A stretch of 64,000 bases of DNA from Arthrobacter sp. D5-1. Lineage in GTDB: Bacteria > Actinomycetota > Actinomycetes > Actinomycetales > Micrococcaceae. Shown piece after piece: positions 18,299-60,322 of this stretch (within the stretch, counting starts at the first letter, position 1; every line of letters starts with the position of its first letter). Both the position numbers and the translations under genes were made by a program. Below the pieces are notes generated by a model. That model searched no databases. It saw nothing but the letters and a program-made list of their open reading frames with translations, and was not told the DNA's origin. The stretch spans positions 1,364,001-1,428,000 of the forward strand of contig NZ_CP014571.1 in NCBI RefSeq assembly GCF_017357425.1. The letters run 5' to 3'.

Positions 18299-18394
18299 TG
18301 TCAATGGCCAGTTGTTTCTGCCCATGGACGGCCACTAAAAGTGCCCGCTGGTGGCCAGTAAAACTGCCCGGTGATGGCCAACAGATCTGCCCAC
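18299..18394. repeat. Left terminal multiple-repeat region of the IS21 element
   Basis: Four spaced copies of a GGCCA(N)TGCCC unit, with spacers such as GTAAAAC. IS21 ends typically contain several repeats that serve as transposase-binding sites. It aligns over its length with the reverse complement of 20869-20963. Confidence 0.85.
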
Positions 18395-18430
18395 TGATTG
18401 GTTCGGCGGGATTGGCCATCGTGGGGTTGA

Positions 18431-19219
18431 TCAGTTCAGTCGGGTTACTCCTTTCCCGGCGAGGGCCTGGGTGAGGCGGACGGAATCGCCGCTGGTCTGA
18501 CAGACGTGGGCGTGGTGCAGCAGCCGGTCAACGGTGGCGGTTGCGAGGGTTTTGGGCATGAGCTCGTCGAATCCGGCGGGGTGGAGGTTGGAGCTGATCG
18601 CGATGGACCGTTTTTCGTAGGCTGCGTCCACGACCCGGTAGAGACCTTCGGCGGCGTCCGTGGCCACCGGCAACAGGCCAATATCGTCAATGACCACGAG
18701 CTCCGCGCGGAGAATCCTGGCCACGGCCCGGGTGACGCTGTCGTCGGTTCGGTGGGCGCGGATCAGGACGCCGAGGTCTTCGAGCCTGAACCAGGCGACC
18801 CGCATTCCGGCTTCAACGGCCTGCTGGCCGAGGGCTTCGAGGAAGAACGTCTTCCCGGTCCCGGAGGGCCCGCAGACGACGAGGTTTTCCCTGCGGGTGA
18901 TCCATTCCAGGGTCCGGAGGGCCTGCTGGGTCGGGGCAGGGATGGAGGACGCTGCAGGGTCCCACGCCTCGAAGGTCTTCCCGGTCGGGAAGCCTGCTGC
19001 TTTGCGGCGGGAAGCGAGCATGGACCGGGCCCGACCGGCGGCTTCCTCGGTGAAGAGTGCTTTGATGACCTCGGTTGGTTCCCACCGCTGGGCGCGGGCG
19101 GTCGCGATCAGGTCCGGTGCCAGTGCACGGGCGTGGGGCATTTTCAGGGACCGCATAAGGGCTTCCAGGTCCGCCGGCAACGGCGGAGCGGCGGTGTTGG
19201 CTGTGGTGACGGGGCTCAT
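18431..19219 (-). CDS. istB: IS21 helper ATPase IstB
   Basis: A 262-residue AAA+ protein. Walker A is GPSGTGKTF (about residues 116-124) and Walker B LVVIDDIGLLP; a sensor-type segment IAISSNLHPAGFDELMP follows. IstB assembles on DNA and recruits and stimulates the IstA transposase. The ATG at 19219 overlaps the TGA of istA (19216-19218), the usual coupled arrangement. An in-frame extension 25 codons upstream lies within istA and lacks support. The length is typical of the family. Confidence 0.93.
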   Translation of the reverse strand: MSPVTTANTAAPPLPADLEALMRSLKMPHARALAPDLIATARAQRWEPTEVIKALFTEEAAGRARSMLASRRKAAGFPTGKTFEAWDPAASSIPAPTQQALRTLEWITRRENLVVCGPSGTGKTFFLEALGQQAVEAGMRVAWFRLEDLGVLIRAHRTDDSVTRAVARILRAELVVIDDIGLLPVATDAAEGLYRVVDAAYEKRSIAISSNLHPAGFDELMPKTLATATVDRLLHHAHVCQTSGDSVRLTQALAGKGVTRLN

Positions 19220-20769
19220 CGGGCCTCCTCCGGCGTGATTTTGGTCGTGGTGTTGGTTGTGGTGTTCAGGGTCGGGTTGCCGATCGCGGCCCACGCGCCG
19301 GTTCCCTGAGTCAGGGAGGTGGCTTCGTTGGCCGCGTGGGTGGTCGTGCGGCGGATGTTGGCGTTCAGGATCGAGGCGAGGTCCTGGTGCGCGAACCGGC
19401 CATGTAGTGCGGCGTCGCCCAGGGCCCGGTCGACCTGGTCGGTGCCGGCGATTTTGGCCAGCGTGACGGCTTCTGCCATTTTCACGTTGATCCGTGCGGT
19501 CCCGGCCGCGGCGGCCTCCATCAGCCAGGTCCTGGCGCCTTCGCCGATGGCCAGGAACGCTGCCTCGTCCGCGCTGCGGGCCCTGACCTCGTAATCGCCG
19601 GGGACCCTGGTCCGGGTTCCCGGGAAGTGTTCGTCGTTGATGGCGGGACTGCCGGGCCGGGCCCGATCATGGCGGGCGACTTCGACGGGCCCTGCAGTGC
19701 CGTGGTGGACGATGATGACCTGCTCGCCGGGCCCGGTCCCGTGGGTGCGGACGAACACCCGGGCTCCGAGCAGGTGGGCCGGGACGGAGTACTGGGCGTT
19801 TTCGAAGGTGACCATTGGGGTGTTCTCCGGAACCATGCGGGCGAGTCCGAAGGCGACCGTGTGGGCGGTGTCCGGGATACGGTGCAGCCGCGGGGCTTCC
19901 TCGGCGAGCATGGCTGCGGGTTTGCGCCGCGTCGTCCGGTGCTCACGGTGATTGACCTCGTCCATGAACGCCGTGCAGGCGGCCTCGAGCTCGGCGAAGG
20001 TGGCGTATTCGTCGCGGAGGTTGGTGTCTTTGGGCACGAGGTCGGCCTTGGCGAGCTTCACGGACGCTTCCACCCCGCCTTTGGTGGCCGGGTCCGCGGG
20101 CTGGCAGGTCAGCACGGTCACCCCGTAGTGCCGGGCGAAGTCCAGGGTCTGCTGGTTCCGCACCGGGACCCCGGCAACGTGGGAGGTGGTCACGGTCTTC
20201 TCGTTGTCCGTGAGGACATAGGTCGGTGCTCCGCCGAGGATCCGGAAGCACCGGTCCAGGGCCGCGAACACGCTCGGCGCCGTCCTGTCCTTGAGCGGGA
20301 TCACGATGCGGAAGCGTGAGAACGCCAGCCACGCCACGAACAGGATCGTCTTCACCCCGCCGATCCGTGGCCCGTCGCCGAAGTCGTACTGCAACCACAT
20401 CCCAGGTTCAGTGATCCACGGCCGATGGACGCGGGTGTGGCCCAGCCGCCACGCGTCCTTGACCTGCGCAATCGCCCGGCGGGTGGAGCGCTCCGAACCC
20501 GCATAGCCCAGAGCGAGGAGCTTCTCGTGGGCCTTGTCAGCGCGGATCCGGCCCTTGGAGGCTTCCACCCATTCTTCGATCTTGGGCAGGAACGGGTCGG
20601 TGACCCGGCCCCGTGCCGTCGGTTCCCCGATCGGCCGGCCTGCGTCCCGGGCGGTCACGTGTTTGGCAACAGTGTGGTGCGAGCAGCCCGTGAGCTCCGC
20701 AGTGGCGCGCAACGATCCGGTCAGGTCGTAGGCAGCAAGAATTTCCATGATTTCTCCGTCAGACTTCAT
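19216..20769 (-). CDS. istA: IS21 transposase IstA
   Basis: A 517-residue DDE transposase. The N-terminal HTH (MEILAAYDLTGSLRATAELT then GCSHHTVAKHV) binds the ends. The catalytic core has an Asp in QYDFGD, a second in VLTDNEKT and a Glu in KGGVEASVK. The C-terminal beta domain contains NAQYSVPAHLLGARV, as usual in IS21. The ATG at 20769 is preferred because of AGGAAGAGG upstream; alternatives are at 20814 and 20838. No frameshift or stop is present, so the protein is probably functional. Confidence 0.92.
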   Translation of the reverse strand: MKSDGEIMEILAAYDLTGSLRATAELTGCSHHTVAKHVTARDAGRPIGEPTARGRVTDPFLPKIEEWVEASKGRIRADKAHEKLLALGYAGSERSTRRAIAQVKDAWRLGHTRVHRPWITEPGMWLQYDFGDGPRIGGVKTILFVAWLAFSRFRIVIPLKDRTAPSVFAALDRCFRILGGAPTYVLTDNEKTVTTSHVAGVPVRNQQTLDFARHYGVTVLTCQPADPATKGGVEASVKLAKADLVPKDTNLRDEYATFAELEAACTAFMDEVNHREHRTTRRKPAAMLAEEAPRLHRIPDTAHTVAFGLARMVPENTPMVTFENAQYSVPAHLLGARVFVRTHGTGPGEQVIIVHHGTAGPVEVARHDRARPGSPAINDEHFPGTRTRVPGDYEVRARSADEAAFLAIGEGARTWLMEAAAAGTARINVKMAEAVTLAKIAGTDQVDRALGDAALHGRFAHQDLASILNANIRRTTTHAANEATSLTQGTGAWAAIGNPTLNTTTNTTTKITPEEAR

Positions 20770-20868
20770 ACAGGGCCTCTTCCTGGTTCGCTTGGTGCGC
20801 TTAGACACCGTCATCAAACCCCAGGGAGAGGCTCCCACCGCTTAAGACGCGGTCGGTTCAGTAAGGAA

Positions 20869-20963
20869 GTGGGCAGATCTCATGGCCACCATCGGGCAGT
20901 TTTACTGGCCGTCAGTGGGCACTTTCGTGGCCGCCTATGGGCAGTTTTTCATGGCCGCTAACA
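20869..20963. repeat. Right terminal multiple-repeat region of the IS21 element
   Basis: An inverted counterpart of 18299-18394, containing four GGGCA(N)TGGCC units read on the plus strand. The TAACA end is followed by the direct repeat CACGCC. Confidence 0.85.
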
Positions 20964-42776: not shown

Positions 42777-42785
42777 CGGGCTCAC

Positions 42786-42847
42786 CCGAGGGGTTGGCTC
42801 TCGGCCCTAAGCGAGCCCTCAAAGTGCTGAGATGTAACCCCTCGGCG
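42786..42847. repeat. Palindromic repeat family G, copy 1
   Basis: CCGAGGGGTTGGCTCTCGGC begins the element and CCCCTCGG ends it; inside, GCGAGCCC and AAAGTGCTGAGA are shared with the copy at 44006-44066. About 80% identity is apparent by eye. It lies between the gene ending at 42776 and the VOC gene at 42929. Confidence 0.75.
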
Positions 42848-44005: not shown

Positions 44006-44066
44006 GCCGAGGGGTCAGCTCTCGGCACTAAGCGAGCCCCAAAGTGCCGAGACGTCGCCCCTCGGC
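44006..44066. repeat. Palindromic repeat family G, copy 2
   Basis: GCCGAGGGG (44006-44014) pairs with CCCCTCGGCGC (44058 onward). Inside, CTCGGCACT (44021-44029) pairs with AGTGCCGAG (44043-44051), giving a two-level hairpin. It corresponds to copy 1 at 42786-42847. Confidence 0.8.
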
Positions 44067-44097
44067 GCAAGGTGGGGGAGAAGCGACCCAAAAGAAG

Positions 44098-46228: not shown

Positions 46229-46798
46229 ATGCGCATTGTTGTCCTCGTCTCCGGTACCGGTTCCAATCTTCAGGCAGTCATCGACGCCGTGAAGTCGGGT
46301 GAACTGGATGTCGAGATCGCCGCCGTGGGCGCCGACCGCCCCGACACGTACGGCGTGGAGCGCTCCGATGAGGCCGGCATTGAGACCTTCGTGGTCAACT
46401 TCAACTCGTTTGAAACCCGTGCTGAATGGGACGCCGCCCTCCGCGACAAGGTGCTGTCCTACTCGCCGGACGTCGTGGTGTCCTCCGGGTTCATGAGGAT
46501 CGTCAGCGAAGACTTCATCAACGCTTTCGACGGCAAGTACGTCAACACACACCCCGCGCTGCTTCCGTCCTTCCCGGGCGCCCACGGAGTACGCGATGCC
46601 ATTGCGTACGGCGTGAAGGTCACGGGCTGCACCGTTCACTGGGCCGACGCCGGCGTGGACACAGGGCCCATCATCGCCCAGGAAGCCGTTGCCGTGCTTC
46701 CGGAGGACTCCGAGGAAACCCTGCACGAGCGCATCAAGGTAGTGGAGCGCCGCCTGCTGGTCCAGACCCTGCGGGACCTCGCAGCCGCCCCCGCGTAG
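46229..46798 (+). CDS. purN: Phosphoribosylglycinamide formyltransferase PurN
   Basis: A 189-residue enzyme of purine synthesis, converting GAR to FGAR with 10-formyl-THF. The motif VNTHPALLPSFPGAHG has Asn106 and His108; GVDTGPI has Asp144, the same positions as in E. coli PurN. The N-terminal phosphate-binding segment is VSGTGSNLQA. Length is typical. A palindromic 66-bp repeat starts 7 bp after its stop. purH lies 6 kb downstream, separated by other genes. Confidence 0.96.
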   Translation: MRIVVLVSGTGSNLQAVIDAVKSGELDVEIAAVGADRPDTYGVERSDEAGIETFVVNFNSFETRAEWDAALRDKVLSYSPDVVVSSGFMRIVSEDFINAFDGKYVNTHPALLPSFPGAHGVRDAIAYGVKVTGCTVHWADAGVDTGPIIAQEAVAVLPEDSEETLHERIKVVERRLLVQTLRDLAAAPA

Positions 46799-46805
46799 GT
46801 CCCCA

Positions 46806-46871
46806 CCCAACTGAGTAACAGCAAGTGTTCCACTCAGCCCTGAGTAGAGCGTTTGCTGTTACCTAGTTGGG
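46806..46871. repeat. 66-bp palindrome family P, copy H1 (left of DUF559 gene)
   Basis: It starts CCCAACTGAGTAACAGCAA and ends TTGCTGTTACCTAGTTGGG. It has the same length and design as H2 (47862-47927) and H3 (60257-60322). Arms are about 23 bp with a few mismatches, loop about 20 bp. It lies between purN and a DUF559 gene. Confidence 0.9.
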
Positions 46872-46934
46872 TGGCAGGAACGAAAGGCTGTGGTTAACGC
46901 CCCACGCTCCCGGCACATTTGCCAGCATGGGCTG

Positions 46935-47870
46935 ATGAAGATCCCGCGGCCGCTCCCGGCAGACCTCACTTCGAAGCCCTTTACAAGGCAGGAAGCGCTC
47001 GACGCCGGAGTGTCAGTTGGGCGACTGCGTTATCGGGATCTGGACTCACCAAGCCGTCAGATATATGTACCCGGCTCCGTTGACGAGTTGCAGTTGACCG
47101 ATCGCGCCAGACCCTTGACGTTGGTCACGCCGTTCTCCGCGGCTTCGCATGCGACGGCGTTCCTTCTTTGGGGGTTTCCCGGATTCCTCCCACGCAGCCA
47201 TGAGCCGGGTATTCACATTTCGCGACCTGACACCGTCGGAATCCCGCGCCGCCGGGGCGTGATCGGGCATAGGGGACAGTTCTTCGAAGACGAGATCACC
47301 GCTTTGGATGGAATGTACATCACCAGCCGGGCCCGGACATGGCTGGACTGTGCCCGGAGAATGGATATTGATGAGATCACTGTCGTGGCTGACCATCTGT
47401 TGCGTGTGCCCAAGCCGGAATTTGAAGGACGCAGTTCCCCGTATTGCACCATGGATGAGCTCGAAGAGATGCTTGACCGGCACTGGGGGACACCGGGTAT
47501 CCGAAAGGCCCGCCCCGCCTTGGAACAAGCTTGCGTGGGTGCCGACTCCGCACCCGAAACGCGACTTAGGCTGGCGCTGAACAGGGCTGGGCTGCCCACA
47601 GCGGAAGTCAACGTGCCCACGGAACTGAGTCCCGGCGTCGTACGTCAACCGGACCTGGCGTATCGCGAACAGCGTGTTGCCGTGGAATACGAAGGTGAGG
47701 GTCATTCAGATCCGGAGCAGATTGTCCGGGACATAGCCCGTGAGGAAGACTTCAGCCGCGCAGGATGGACCTTGGTGAGGATCTCAAAGCGGCACATGGG
47801 CAACGACGCGAGGTCCGCCGTGGCCAAAGTGCGCAGGGCGCTCGAACAACGCGGCTGGGCTCCCAACTAG
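46935..47870 (+). CDS. DUF559-type endonuclease-like protein (copy 1)
   Basis: A 311-residue protein. The N-terminal part has a winged-helix-like segment (FTRQEALDAGVSVGRLRYRD, then RQIYVPGS) as in AbiEi-like antitoxin N-domains. The C-terminal domain resembles the Vsr-like PD-(D/E)XK fold of DUF559: RQPDLAYREQRVAVEYEGEG with Asp and Glu-x-Glu, then EDFSRAGWTLVRISK. The ATG at 46935 is chosen; frames extending upstream lack a ribosome-binding site. Its TAG is the TAG within CCCAACTAG at the left edge of repeat H2. H1 ends 63 bp before the start codon and H2 begins at the end of the coding region. Function is unknown. Confidence 0.8.
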   Translation: MKIPRPLPADLTSKPFTRQEALDAGVSVGRLRYRDLDSPSRQIYVPGSVDELQLTDRARPLTLVTPFSAASHATAFLLWGFPGFLPRSHEPGIHISRPDTVGIPRRRGVIGHRGQFFEDEITALDGMYITSRARTWLDCARRMDIDEITVVADHLLRVPKPEFEGRSSPYCTMDELEEMLDRHWGTPGIRKARPALEQACVGADSAPETRLRLALNRAGLPTAEVNVPTELSPGVVRQPDLAYREQRVAVEYEGEGHSDPEQIVRDIAREEDFSRAGWTLVRISKRHMGNDARSAVAKVRRALEQRGWAPN

Positions 47871-47927
47871 GTAACAGTAAACGTTCCACTGAGCGCTCAA
47901 TGGGACGTTTACTGTTACCTAGTTGGG
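47862..47927. repeat. 66-bp palindrome family P, copy H2 (between convergent genes)
   Basis: A perfect 23-bp inverted repeat (CCCAACTAGGTAACAG... with its complement ending ...CTAGTTGGG), loop 20 bp. The stop codon of the DUF559 gene is inside it and the TAA of the MFS gene (47928-47930) abuts it. It probably works as a bidirectional terminator. Confidence 0.93.
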
Positions 47928-49280
47928 TTAGGAGAGGACGCGCTGCTTCGTCTCCGGGGCGAAGAACGCCATCCACAGCACGGACAGCAGCACCAGGCCA
48001 CCGGCCATCGCGAACGACTGCGCCAACCCGAACTCGGGCCAGAAGAAGGAGGCAAACACCAGCGGGCCGAAGCCGGCGCCGATGCGGGAGAACGTCGAAG
48101 CCCAGCCGAAGCCCGAGCCGCGAAGTTCGGTGGGGTACAGCTCGGACACGTAGGCATAGAGGACCGGAATGGCCACCTGGACCACGAAGCCGAACACCAG
48201 CAGCCAGAACACAGCAGCCGATGGCACATCCACGACGAACGCCACGATCACCAGCGTCAGCGCGGACAACGGACCGGTAATGGCAAGGATCCACTTGCGT
48301 CCCACCCGCTCCACCAGCAGCGCTGCCACCACCACGCCCAGAAGTCCGACGGCGGCCATGCTCGCCGTCGTGACGAACGCCTTGTACTCCTCGAATCCGG
48401 CGCCGATAAGAATGCGCGGCATCCACGTGAGGGACAAGTAATAGACCAACAGGATGCTGAAGAACAGGGCCCAGGCCGCGGTCGTAATCTTCCAATTGAA
48501 CTGCCAGATCCCGCGCAACTGTGCCCACGCGCTGCCGGGGGAGAGGCGCGGTGCGGCCTGAGGCTCGGGCAAACTGTACGCGCGGGGCTCGGCACCGGTG
48601 GCTTCCACCAGACCGTCGATCACCGCCGCCGCCTCTTGCCGTCTACCCGCTCGAATCAAGAACAGCGGAGATTCCGGCACCGAACGCCGAACCCAGAAAA
48701 CGAGCAATGCGGGCAACACCATGATGAGCATCGTGAGCCGCCAATCGCCGAAGGCAGCAACCAGGCCGGCGGAGACGAAACCACAGAGCGCAGCACCGAT
48801 CGGCCACCACCCGTCCATGGCCGTCAGCACCTTGCCGCGTTGTTTGCGGGGAGTGAACTCACCCACCAGCGCATAATCCACGGGGATGCAGCCGCCCAGG
48901 CCGAAGCCGGCCATGAAGCGGAAGATGCAGAACCACACGATGTCCGGCGCAAAAGCACCCAGAACCGTGAAGATGCTGAAAATCAGGAGGGTCGCTGTGA
49001 AGGCTTTCTTGCGGCCAATGGTGTCGGCAATGGTGCCCCACGCGAACGCACCCACGGCCATGCCGATCAGGTTGGCCGTGCCGATCCACGCAGCGTCAGT
49101 CGGTTGCAGCGACCAGTGCTTGGACAGCAGTGGTATCAGGATGCCGTTGAGCGTGACATCCCAAGCGTCGAACATGAACCCGAGCCCGCCGATCAGGAAA
49201 ATCCGTCCCTGGACCTTCCACCGCCATGGCAGTTCCTGCACAACTTGCTCGCCGCTGGGCACGGCTGTGTATGTATTCAT
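47928..49280 (-). CDS. MFS transporter, metabolite:H+ symporter type
   Basis: A 450-residue protein with 12 helices. The sugar-porter-like motif is GTIADTIGRKKAFTATLLIF after helix 2, GLGGCIPVDYALVGEFTPRK after helix 4, and SVPESPLFL before the central loop. AGGAGG lies four bases before the ATG at 49280. It is the last gene of an operon with the MurNAc-type kinase and murQ, so it may take up a cell-wall amino sugar (inference). The stop codon abuts repeat H2. Confidence 0.9.
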   Translation of the reverse strand: MNTYTAVPSGEQVVQELPWRWKVQGRIFLIGGLGFMFDAWDVTLNGILIPLLSKHWSLQPTDAAWIGTANLIGMAVGAFAWGTIADTIGRKKAFTATLLIFSIFTVLGAFAPDIVWFCIFRFMAGFGLGGCIPVDYALVGEFTPRKQRGKVLTAMDGWWPIGAALCGFVSAGLVAAFGDWRLTMLIMVLPALLVFWVRRSVPESPLFLIRAGRRQEAAAVIDGLVEATGAEPRAYSLPEPQAAPRLSPGSAWAQLRGIWQFNWKITTAAWALFFSILLVYYLSLTWMPRILIGAGFEEYKAFVTTASMAAVGLLGVVVAALLVERVGRKWILAITGPLSALTLVIVAFVVDVPSAAVFWLLVFGFVVQVAIPVLYAYVSELYPTELRGSGFGWASTFSRIGAGFGPLVFASFFWPEFGLAQSFAMAGGLVLLSVLWMAFFAPETKQRVLS

Positions 49281-49331
49281 TGGGCCTCCTGCATGCAACT
49301 TTATGCGCTGTGCACCGAGCGGAAGTCCGCG

Positions 49332-51204: not shown

Positions 51205-51218
51205 GGATCAACCCTATG

Positions 51219-51277
51219 TTGTGAGGCCCGTTCTGCAGGGTATGGGTCTCGCTTTGCCTGCAGAGTGGGCCTCGCAA
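51219..51277. repeat. Palindrome carrying the core of the tandem-array unit
   Basis: The left arm (51219-51239) has TTGTGAGGCCC then CTGCAGG; the right arm (51257-51277) has CCTGCAG then GGGCCTCGCAA. The arms are 21 bp each, nearly perfect, around a 17-bp loop. AGTGGGCCTCGCAACGC is the core of the array downstream of the DUF559 gene (52348 onward). Confidence 0.8.
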
Positions 51278-51391
51278 CGCGTTGGCTGGCAACGCGGGCG
51301 CAACTTCTGTGGAGGAACAGTCGCAGCGCCCCCAGGGGCCAAATCTGTGGATAACGCAACACCGCCGACCGTTTCCGGCAAGCATGGTCCA

Positions 51392-52321
51392 ATGCTGAAA
51401 CCCACGCCCCTGCCGTCGGAGATCGACCCGGATGGCTTCCTTGTCCGAGATGCGTACGCGGCTGGCGTTCCCCGCGGGAGGTTGCAATCGGCGGGCCTCG
51501 TCACACCCAGCCGGGGAATCCGGCTCAACCGAAGCGATAGCCCCAACGTGGCGCTACTTGCACGACTGCATACGGCCATCACTCCCAGATGTGCGGTGAG
51601 CCATGTAACCGCGGCGCTCCTCTGGTCGATCCCACTTCCGATCTATCTGGAGGAGGAGGGCAACAACGGCGTTATCCATGTGACGCGTCGACACGAGATT
51701 GGGCGGGTTAAGCGTCGCGGTGTGGTGGGGCATCGGGCGCCGCTCTTGGCCAGGGATGTTCGTGTTGTGAACGGGGTCCAACTGACGTCGCCCGAGTGGA
51801 CCTGGATGGATTTGGCCCGGCAGATAGGGCGGTCTTCGCTTGTGGCCGCCGGAGACTTTCTGTTGGCCCGGGAGAATCCGTTGTCCTCCATTGAGGCGAT
51901 CCAGGAAGTCATTAACCGGCGACCGAAGGTAAAGGGAATCAGGATGGCCCGGGAGATACTGCCGTTGCTGCGCGTTGGAGTCGATTCTCCGCAGGAATCC
52001 CGGCTGCGGTTGAAAATCGTCGACGCCGGCCTGCCGGAGCCAGCGGTCACGCAGCCGATCTTTGATGAGCATGGCAGGTACATATCCACGCCGGACCTCC
52101 AGTACAAGGAATACAAAATTGCCATGGAGTATGAGGGGGACCATCACCGCTCCGATCCCGTGCAATGGGGTAAGGACATCGAACGTGACGATCGGCTTCG
52201 GGCTATGGGATGGATCGTGCTCAGGTTCTCCGATGTCCAGATGAAAGGTGGATGGGCCAACGCGGAACGTAAGGTTCGCGATGCGTTGGTGTCGCGCGGG
52301 TGGCGAGGCCCGGCGTCGTAA
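51392..52321 (+). CDS. DUF559-type endonuclease-like protein (copy 2)
   Basis: A 309-residue paralogue of the protein at 46935-47870. The N-terminal winged-helix-like segment is VRDAYAAGVPRGRLQSAGLV then SRGIRLNRS. The C-terminal domain has STPDLQYKEYKIAMEYEGDH (Asp and Glu-x-Glu of the PD-(D/E)XK core) and RLRAMGWIVLRFSDVQM. The start is a plain ATG without an obvious ribosome-binding site. The gene is bracketed by a palindrome upstream and a tandem array starting 26 bp after its stop. Function is unknown. Confidence 0.8.
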   Translation: MLKPTPLPSEIDPDGFLVRDAYAAGVPRGRLQSAGLVTPSRGIRLNRSDSPNVALLARLHTAITPRCAVSHVTAALLWSIPLPIYLEEEGNNGVIHVTRRHEIGRVKRRGVVGHRAPLLARDVRVVNGVQLTSPEWTWMDLARQIGRSSLVAAGDFLLARENPLSSIEAIQEVINRRPKVKGIRMAREILPLLRVGVDSPQESRLRLKIVDAGLPEPAVTQPIFDEHGRYISTPDLQYKEYKIAMEYEGDHHRSDPVQWGKDIERDDRLRAMGWIVLRFSDVQMKGGWANAERKVRDALVSRGWRGPAS

Positions 52322-52339
52322 TTCTTGCGCACGGGGTGT

Positions 52340-52812
52340 TGGGTGTGGAGTGGGCCTCGCATTGTGGGGGCGGGATTTGTGGGGCCTGGTGTGCAGGGGT
52401 TGGGCGGGGTGTTGGGTGTGGAGTGGGCCTCGCAACGCAAGGGGTGTGTTTGTGGGGCCTGGTGTGCAGGGGTTGGGGAGGGTTGATGGGTGTGGAGTGG
52501 GCCTCGCATTGCAGGGGGTGTGTTTGTGGGGCCTGGTGTGCAGAGGTTGGGCGGGTTGATGGGTGTGGAGTGGGCCTCGCAGTGTGGGGGGCGGGATTTG
52601 TGGGGCCTGGTGTGCAGGGGTTGGGCGGGTTGATGGGTAAGGAGTGGGCCTCGCAACGCAGGGGGCGGGATTTGTGGGGCCTGGTGTGCAGGGGTTGGGC
52701 GGGTTGATGGGTGCGGAGTGGGCCTCGCATTGCAGGGGGTGGGATTTGTGGGGCCTGGTGTGCAGGGGTTGGGGAGGGTTGATGGGTGCAGAGCGGGCCT
52801 CGCAACGCAAGA
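52340..52812. repeat. Seven-copy 73-75 bp tandem array upstream of purH
   Basis: GAG(T/C)GGGCCTCGCA starts at 52348, 52421, 52495, 52568, 52642, 52716 and 52791: periods 73, 74, 73, 74, 74, 75. Each unit also contains GTGGGGCCTGGTGTGCAG and a G-rich tail such as GGGGTTGGGCGGGTTGATGG. Five of the six full units fit a four-run G3+ quadruplex pattern with short loops. The whole stretch is open on the minus strand in several frames because it is C-rich there; I do not regard these as genes. Confidence 0.93.
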
Positions 52813-60256: not shown

Positions 60257-60322
60257 CCCAACTGAGTCGCAGCAAACGTCGTAATGGGGGCGCATTGGAG
60301 CGTTTGCTGTGACTCAGTTGGG
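60257..60322. repeat. 66-bp palindrome family P, copy H3
   Basis: It starts CCCAACTGAGTCGCAGCAAA and ends TTGCTGTGACTCAGTTGGG. The same 66-bp length as H1 and H2, nearly perfect arms and a different loop. It lies between phnE and the sarcosine-oxidase-like gene. Confidence 0.9.

Follow-up and report, generated by a model that had tools for sequence, protein, structure and literature searches.

A nuclease-like gene of the DUF559 type and its own family of dispersed palindromes in Arthrobacter sp. D5-1

Which enzyme might accompany a family of dispersed palindromes when the gene that the palindromes bracket does not code for a transposase? To our knowledge, REP-associated transposases (RAYTs; REP, repetitive extragenic palindromic sequence) are the sole known partner enzymes of dispersed bacterial palindromes. 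The question is raised by a locus within a stretch of 64,000 nucleotides from Arthrobacter sp. D5-1 (contig NZ_CP014571.1, positions 1,364,001 to 1,428,000), the whole of which is called the window here. An imperfect 66-bp palindrome, H1 (46806..46871), begins 7 bp past the end of the preceding gene and stands upstream of a + strand gene (46935..47870) for a 311-residue AbiEi-like / Vsr-like protein (DUF559, MTES_1575), and a second 66-bp palindrome, H2 (47862..47927), overlaps the stop codon TAG and the last two sense codons of that gene. Comparison with related genomes shows that a palindrome family of its own frames the gene, flanking and dispersed copies being alike within a genome; that the dispersed copies depend on the cognate gene, with palindrome divergence following the nuclease and not the neighbouring gene; and that copies mostly sit at gene 3' ends, many of them supplying the stop codon, and at a site shared by relatives can be entirely different. 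Gene and palindromes probably form a two-part intragenomic system, in which a nuclease recognises, maintains and occasionally spreads its own 66-bp palindrome family.

The original prediction had placed the two palindromes around a DUF559 gene, with 63 bp between H1 and the gene start and with H2 giving the TAG, and the coordinates of both were confirmed. The open frame begins with GTG at 46890, but ATG at 46935 is the better and conserved start (MKIPRPLP, similar in orthologues), and with it the spacing of 63 bp holds; the stop at 47868-47870 is provided by H2 (CCCAACTAG). Arms pair at 26 of 33 positions in H1 and at 31 of 33 in H2, the two palindromes are 81% identical, and single-stranded DNA folding against shuffles gave z values of -6.9 for H1 and -12.7 for H2. 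A third copy lies in the window at 60257..60322. Across the whole 5.12-Mb genome a strict consensus found 15 copies and its reversed control 0, so the palindrome is not a product of chance; chance palindromes were ruled out more widely, as the strict reversed control gave 0 in every genome and the broad one a single match in one genome. A search of Rfam returned only two microRNA models, far under their gathering scores, and no known RNA family. Named relatives of the nuclease-like protein place the host in the Arthrobacter/Paenarthrobacter group.

Framing by palindromes was scored with a flank test that aligns, in either orientation, the 400 bp upstream of a gene with a stretch made up of its final 60 bp and the 400 bp that follow, the threshold for the genus sample being the 99th percentile of neighbouring control genes. 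The sample comprised 95 genes, 90 among the matches listed to the window protein (partial matches excluded) and five from a Pfam search, and these are related and so not independent. Framing was found for 90 of the 95 DUF559-type genes and for 2 of the 111 neighbouring control genes (median scores 39.6 versus 12.0). The enrichment beside DUF559 genes relative to other genes, on which the original prediction depended, is thus present, and a generally repeat-rich neighbourhood is rejected by the 2/111 among neighbours. In the subfamily of the window gene, A, the upstream palindrome mostly ends ~60-63 bp ahead of the start and the downstream one mostly starts ~9 bp ahead of the end of the stop codon. 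In subfamilies B and C both the palindrome sequences and their typical distances from the gene are different, and a central core like GTCGTTTTGAG...CTCAAAACGAC is common to the A and B palindromes.

Outside the genus we used 40 hand-picked genes from across the phylum, mostly frames of ~300-440 aa, with wider flanks and a threshold of 20.2 (a locus search from a distant alignment was dropped, the alignment being too diverse). Framing was found in 22 of the 40 against 1 of 39 controls (Mann-Whitney 7e-6), and in 23 against 5 at a looser cut of 18; the 22 span nine taxonomic families and include clear palindromes, for example at L147, L172 and L175. The latter two (genomes G137 and G173, of one genus in another family) have a common repeat family, GAGTGGCCAGTTA...GTGGCCACTCG, around their DUF559-type genes. 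Another actinobacterial DUF559-type gene, L158, has long inverted flanks (score 159, ~240 bp) that resemble transposon ends more than palindromes. Short DUF559 proteins (8 loci) scored from 12.8 to 25.4, one of them over 20.2.

The number of dispersed copies follows the gene. Genomes were grouped by E-value into those with an intact group A gene (below ~1e-120; 53 genomes) and those with a group B gene (~1e-73 to 1e-87; 40 genomes), and five whose group A gene is partial or broken (G017, G027, G033, G064, G097) were kept outside the main two-way count. Copy counts rest on a consensus, which misses variant palindromes such as those of G041. With the broad consensus, applied to 101 genomes, the median was 14 copies in genomes with an intact A gene, 0 in those without it, and 11 in the five with a broken or partial gene. 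At least three copies beyond the two flanking ones were found in 48 of 53 gene-bearing and 6 of 43 gene-less genomes (Fisher 1e-14). On a tree built from neighbouring genes and holding 73 genomes, 43 of the 53 with the gene, 26 of the 43 without it and 4 with a broken one, gene presence switched at least 22 times, and in 21 independent pairs the gene-bearing genome was richer in dispersed copies 18 times, poorer once and tied twice. The number of B palindromes is linked to the B gene in raw numbers (1e-10), but no link was found of A palindromes to the B gene (p 0.84) or of B palindromes to the A gene (p 0.43). These independent pairs and cross-subfamily nulls argue against shared ancestry alone as the explanation.

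Palindrome sequence behaves in the same manner. Among the 34 of 54 orthologous loci in which both palindromes and the convergent neighbour, a major facilitator superfamily (MFS) transporter gene (Pfam; 47928..49298, - strand, in the window), were found, palindrome distance tracks nuclease distance when the MFS gene is controlled for (0.40 and 0.58; 0 of 500 permutations), and hardly tracks the MFS gene when the nuclease is controlled for (0.01 and 0.09). Between flanking copies the median difference is 0.12 for the two of one locus and 0.36 across loci. In 10 genomes, for each of which 6 to 20 dispersed copies were entered, 12 of 17 flanking copies had their nearest match among the dispersed copies of the same genome. 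Both arms co-vary: the two sides had changed in 17 of 30 pairs. The copies compared were chosen with a pattern in which 22 columns are fixed; invariance in those columns is by choice, whereas the variable columns were left free.

As to where the copies lie, a simple open reading frame (ORF) caller, which missed the gene of H2 itself, put 32 of 35 dispersed copies at the 3' end of a gene; for random windows, mostly intergenic, the figure was 103 of 558. In 15 of the 35, by the same caller, an arm of the palindrome supplies a stop codon. Six of 13 sites were compared with close relatives. The flanks are 84-98% identical, and the inner 44 bases show either 0.84-0.98 or about half identity, the latter at 4 of 6 sites between G083 and G000 and at 1 of 5 between G023 and G000. 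Elsewhere the copy is missing in relatives or reduced to a deletion remnant, and once a palindrome of a different family stands there; absence of the copy is apparently clean at L262, L267, L268 and L275.

What kind of protein would be involved? The modelled structure combines an AbiEi-like module with a Vsr/I-Bth0305I-like nuclease domain, and mitoribosomal proteins are among its other fold neighbours. Pfam detected MTES_1575 in all 45 members searched, DUF559 in 32 and AbiEi_4 in 1, and at E 0.01 no further family in these 45; nothing pointed to a Y1 HUH transposase of the IS200/IS605 kind, the parts of the model being other folds. NCBIfam gave at best DUF559 matches below cutoff. Residues E208 and D240 are present in 45 of 45 members and H257 and D266 in 44; they may be the EDxHD positions. 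A sequence search of solved structures listed 3hrl (E 0.002) and 3r3p (E 0.21) behind two IcmE/DotG chains; these two best E-values were rejected as a repeat artefact over a 17-residue stretch, with no stretch passing alone.

Among known systems, the closest in organisation is that of REPs, their paired form (REPIN) and RAYTs. Passages in PMC3116915 and PMC8049555 describe a single-copy, vertically inherited gene near dispersed intergenic palindromes, with several distinct families per genome and more copies where the gene is present. Here too several distinct families occur in one genome, and the partner gene is flanked by members of a dispersed palindrome family, whose copies are more numerous in gene-bearing genomes. 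However, RAYT is a tyrosine HUH transposase and the protein in question AbiEi-like and Vsr-like; a REPIN is two REPs plus a spacer and the present unit one 66-bp palindrome; the GTAG (or CGTC) tag at the end of a REP is replaced by ends reading CCCAACT...AGTTGGG (GTAG occurs inside the arms in some genomes, e.g. AGGTAGCAG, but not at that position in the copies of this genome); and, unlike in REP/RAYT, copies favour gene 3' ends and are replaceable at the same site. The analogy with RAYT drawn in the original prediction therefore stands for organisation, that is, framing and gene-dependent copy number, and fails for homology: the pattern is of the REP/REPIN type and the enzyme different, which suggests a RAYT-like way of working without a RAYT. 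For CGTC-tagged REPs, passages of PMC3733652 speak of dispersed palindromes without a dedicated transposase; they are a precedent for palindromes without a RAYT, with other sequences and hosts, and no partner gene is named in those passages.

Two further systems share parts of the protein. The Vsr-like catalytic fold predicted by the model is that of Vsr and of the EDxHD homing endonuclease I-Bth0305I, which has a long target according to part of PMC3943268. No intron or intein was seen at the present locus, where the gene stands between two palindromes instead of splitting one, and many dispersed gene-less copies and another DNA-binding module set it apart from both I-Bth0305I and Vsr. With type IV toxin-antitoxin AbiE the AbiEi-like module is common, and the AbiEi antitoxin, according to the abstract of PMC7319586, binds to inverted repeats in the promoter of its own gene. 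Here, in contrast, a nuclease domain is fused to the module, and the immediate neighbours in the window are a formyl transferase and the MFS gene, a pair that also flanks most orthologues of the window-gene subfamily, and not an AbiEii nucleotidyltransferase toxin. Among the papers viewed in literature searches that covered few subscription journals and no preprints, none was recognised as linking DUF559-type genes to palindromes.

If the two-part system exists as we envisage it, the AbiEi-like N-terminal module, whose fold in known antitoxins binds inverted repeats, would hold both arms of the palindrome, and the Vsr/I-Bth0305I-like domain would cut inside or beside it. Repair of the cut copy from another copy would overwrite it and thereby homogenise the family; more rarely, repair might seed a new copy or move the whole palindrome-gene-palindrome unit. 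The few palindromes in some gene-less close relatives would then be decaying. We infer cutting and conversion rather than transposition from the nuclease fold, the inverted-repeat-binding relatives of the N-terminal module, the long target of I-Bth0305I and the replacement at the same site.

Several observations weigh against this reading. Fewer than three extra copies are present in 5 of the 53 gene-bearing genomes, and three or more in 6 of the 43 gene-less ones; B copies past the two flanking ones are few, and their association with the B gene is weak (Fisher 0.15, Mann-Whitney 0.008). Across the phylum, 18 of the 40 genes are unframed by the flank test, and several of the 22 framed ones (e.g. 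L153, L158) have long direct or inverted repeats and no clear palindromes. Five of the 17 flanking copies are nearer to copies of another genome, and of the 7 dispersed copies viewed in G083, 6 are of another type than the copies beside the gene. Finally, copy-less sites in relatives often resemble deletion remnants, and inspection by eye of 19 alignments, covering 11 of 20 G023 sites, recognised no target-site duplication.

The main rival is a regulatory or RNA-level role, unlikely in our judgement, in which expression or message ends would be controlled by binding of the protein to the palindromes, either as DNA operators or as RNA hairpins at the 3' ends of mRNAs. The repeats would then spread otherwise, and the nuclease domain would have a structural function or RNA as its substrate. 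Such a role agrees with the position of the palindromes at gene 3' ends and with the mitoribosomal proteins among the fold neighbours, binding alone could explain the co-divergence, and one paper (PMC11879112) reportedly, by its title, concerns a Vsr-like protein acting on mRNA. The promoter repeats bound by AbiEi antitoxins (abstract of PMC7319586) speak for it as well. By itself, however, this role leaves unexplained the genome-specific resemblance of copies and the replacement at the same site, and at L006, L009 and L020, 3 of the 15 copies, the palindrome comes directly after a terminator-like sequence (by eye), so that a terminator role would be unneeded there.

A second rival, which we regard as improbable, holds that palindrome-gene-palindrome is an ordinary transposable unit with the palindromes as its ends, and that solo palindromes are the remains of excised or deleted units. 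Orthologues do occur at no fewer than four different loci, and merely broken or partial pieces of the gene are left in five genomes. The usual locus adjoins the formyl transferase gene (Pfam Formyl_trans_N; 46229..46798, + strand, in the window), which we take to be purN, in 43 of the 54 orthologous loci, 40 of which also have the MFS gene within the fetched stretch; of the 11 loci away from this position, seven are at a second locus common to seven genomes (L033, L035, L038, L041, L044, L048, L061; 28-79 copies) and four at two other places, and genome G032 has two group A gene copies. The six highest palindrome counts (43-79 per genome) all belong to these seven genomes, the seventh having 28. 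When the gap between formyl transferase and MFS gene was viewed by eye in 25 gene-less genomes, three held one subfamily A palindrome, identical in two of them, and the remaining gaps palindromes of other families or none. The single palindrome can be counted for a composite element and also fits homing or simple loss. Yet a unit so sedentary, with 43 of 54 loci at one place, would hardly leave behind as many as 79 palindromes in a genome, and the lack of a recognised target-site duplication in the alignments mentioned above also counts against it. Two side observations concern this locus: in L049 (G004) and L050 (G016) the gene is reversed relative to both neighbours, as if flipped between palindromes, and in the gene-less genomes G018 and G010 (L220 and L233, respectively) the gap is filled by ~1.3 kb of other sequence.

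That short hairpins and small accessory genes simply gather in a shared niche at gene 3' ends, framing being a by-product without functional link, is very improbable: a third palindrome family, present at the ends of two genes in succession, does in this way frame a glyoxalase-like gene, but the framing palindrome is subfamily-specific, copy number follows the cognate gene and not that of the other subfamily, the joint divergence of palindrome and nuclease goes beyond what the linked MFS gene accounts for, and neighbouring control genes are seldom framed (2/111).

The two-part system may not stand alone in this genome. Five further DUF559-type genes were found with Pfam PF04480, and each of the six examined, the genome total being at least six, is framed by its own family of palindromic or repeated sequence as judged by eye; in the flank test all six score above the control threshold, L005 marginally (16.6 versus 16.4). 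The second of these genes in the window (51392..52321, + strand) codes for 309 aa, 38% identical to the first. A palindrome of the second family (51218..51278) lies upstream, and the first of ~7 tandem 73-75-bp units of its repeat (52302..52809) overlaps its last codons; four more copies occur at three places away from it. A wider reading, which we offer as a possibility short of an expectation, is that Actinobacteria harbour a large undescribed class of palindrome-homing systems. AbiEi-Vsr nucleases would cut palindromes at gene 3' ends, and repair would overwrite them with another copy, sometimes of another family; several such systems (at least six here) would coexist and compete for the same gene ends, forming REPIN-like populations through double-strand-break conversion and not HUH transposition. 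Were there an unrelated second class of enzymes with palindrome families of its own, this arrangement would have had more than one origin; a protein family that still carries the label 'unknown function' would gain a suggested role, and a route would open to how genome-resident repeats are copied, homogenised and kept. Binding and conversion are directly testable, since the genome has no fewer than six distinct families and each can serve as a control for the rest.

The third palindrome family (CCGAGGGGT...ACCCCTCGGC) is found at 42783-42847 and 44006-44071 in the window, around the glyoxalase-like gene, whose framing apparently results only from two consecutive genes having this family at their ends. 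Framing by itself is therefore weak evidence, and the cross-genome statistics carry the case. A probable insertion sequence with 58-bp inverted ends, IS21-like by eye, occupies 18338-20925.
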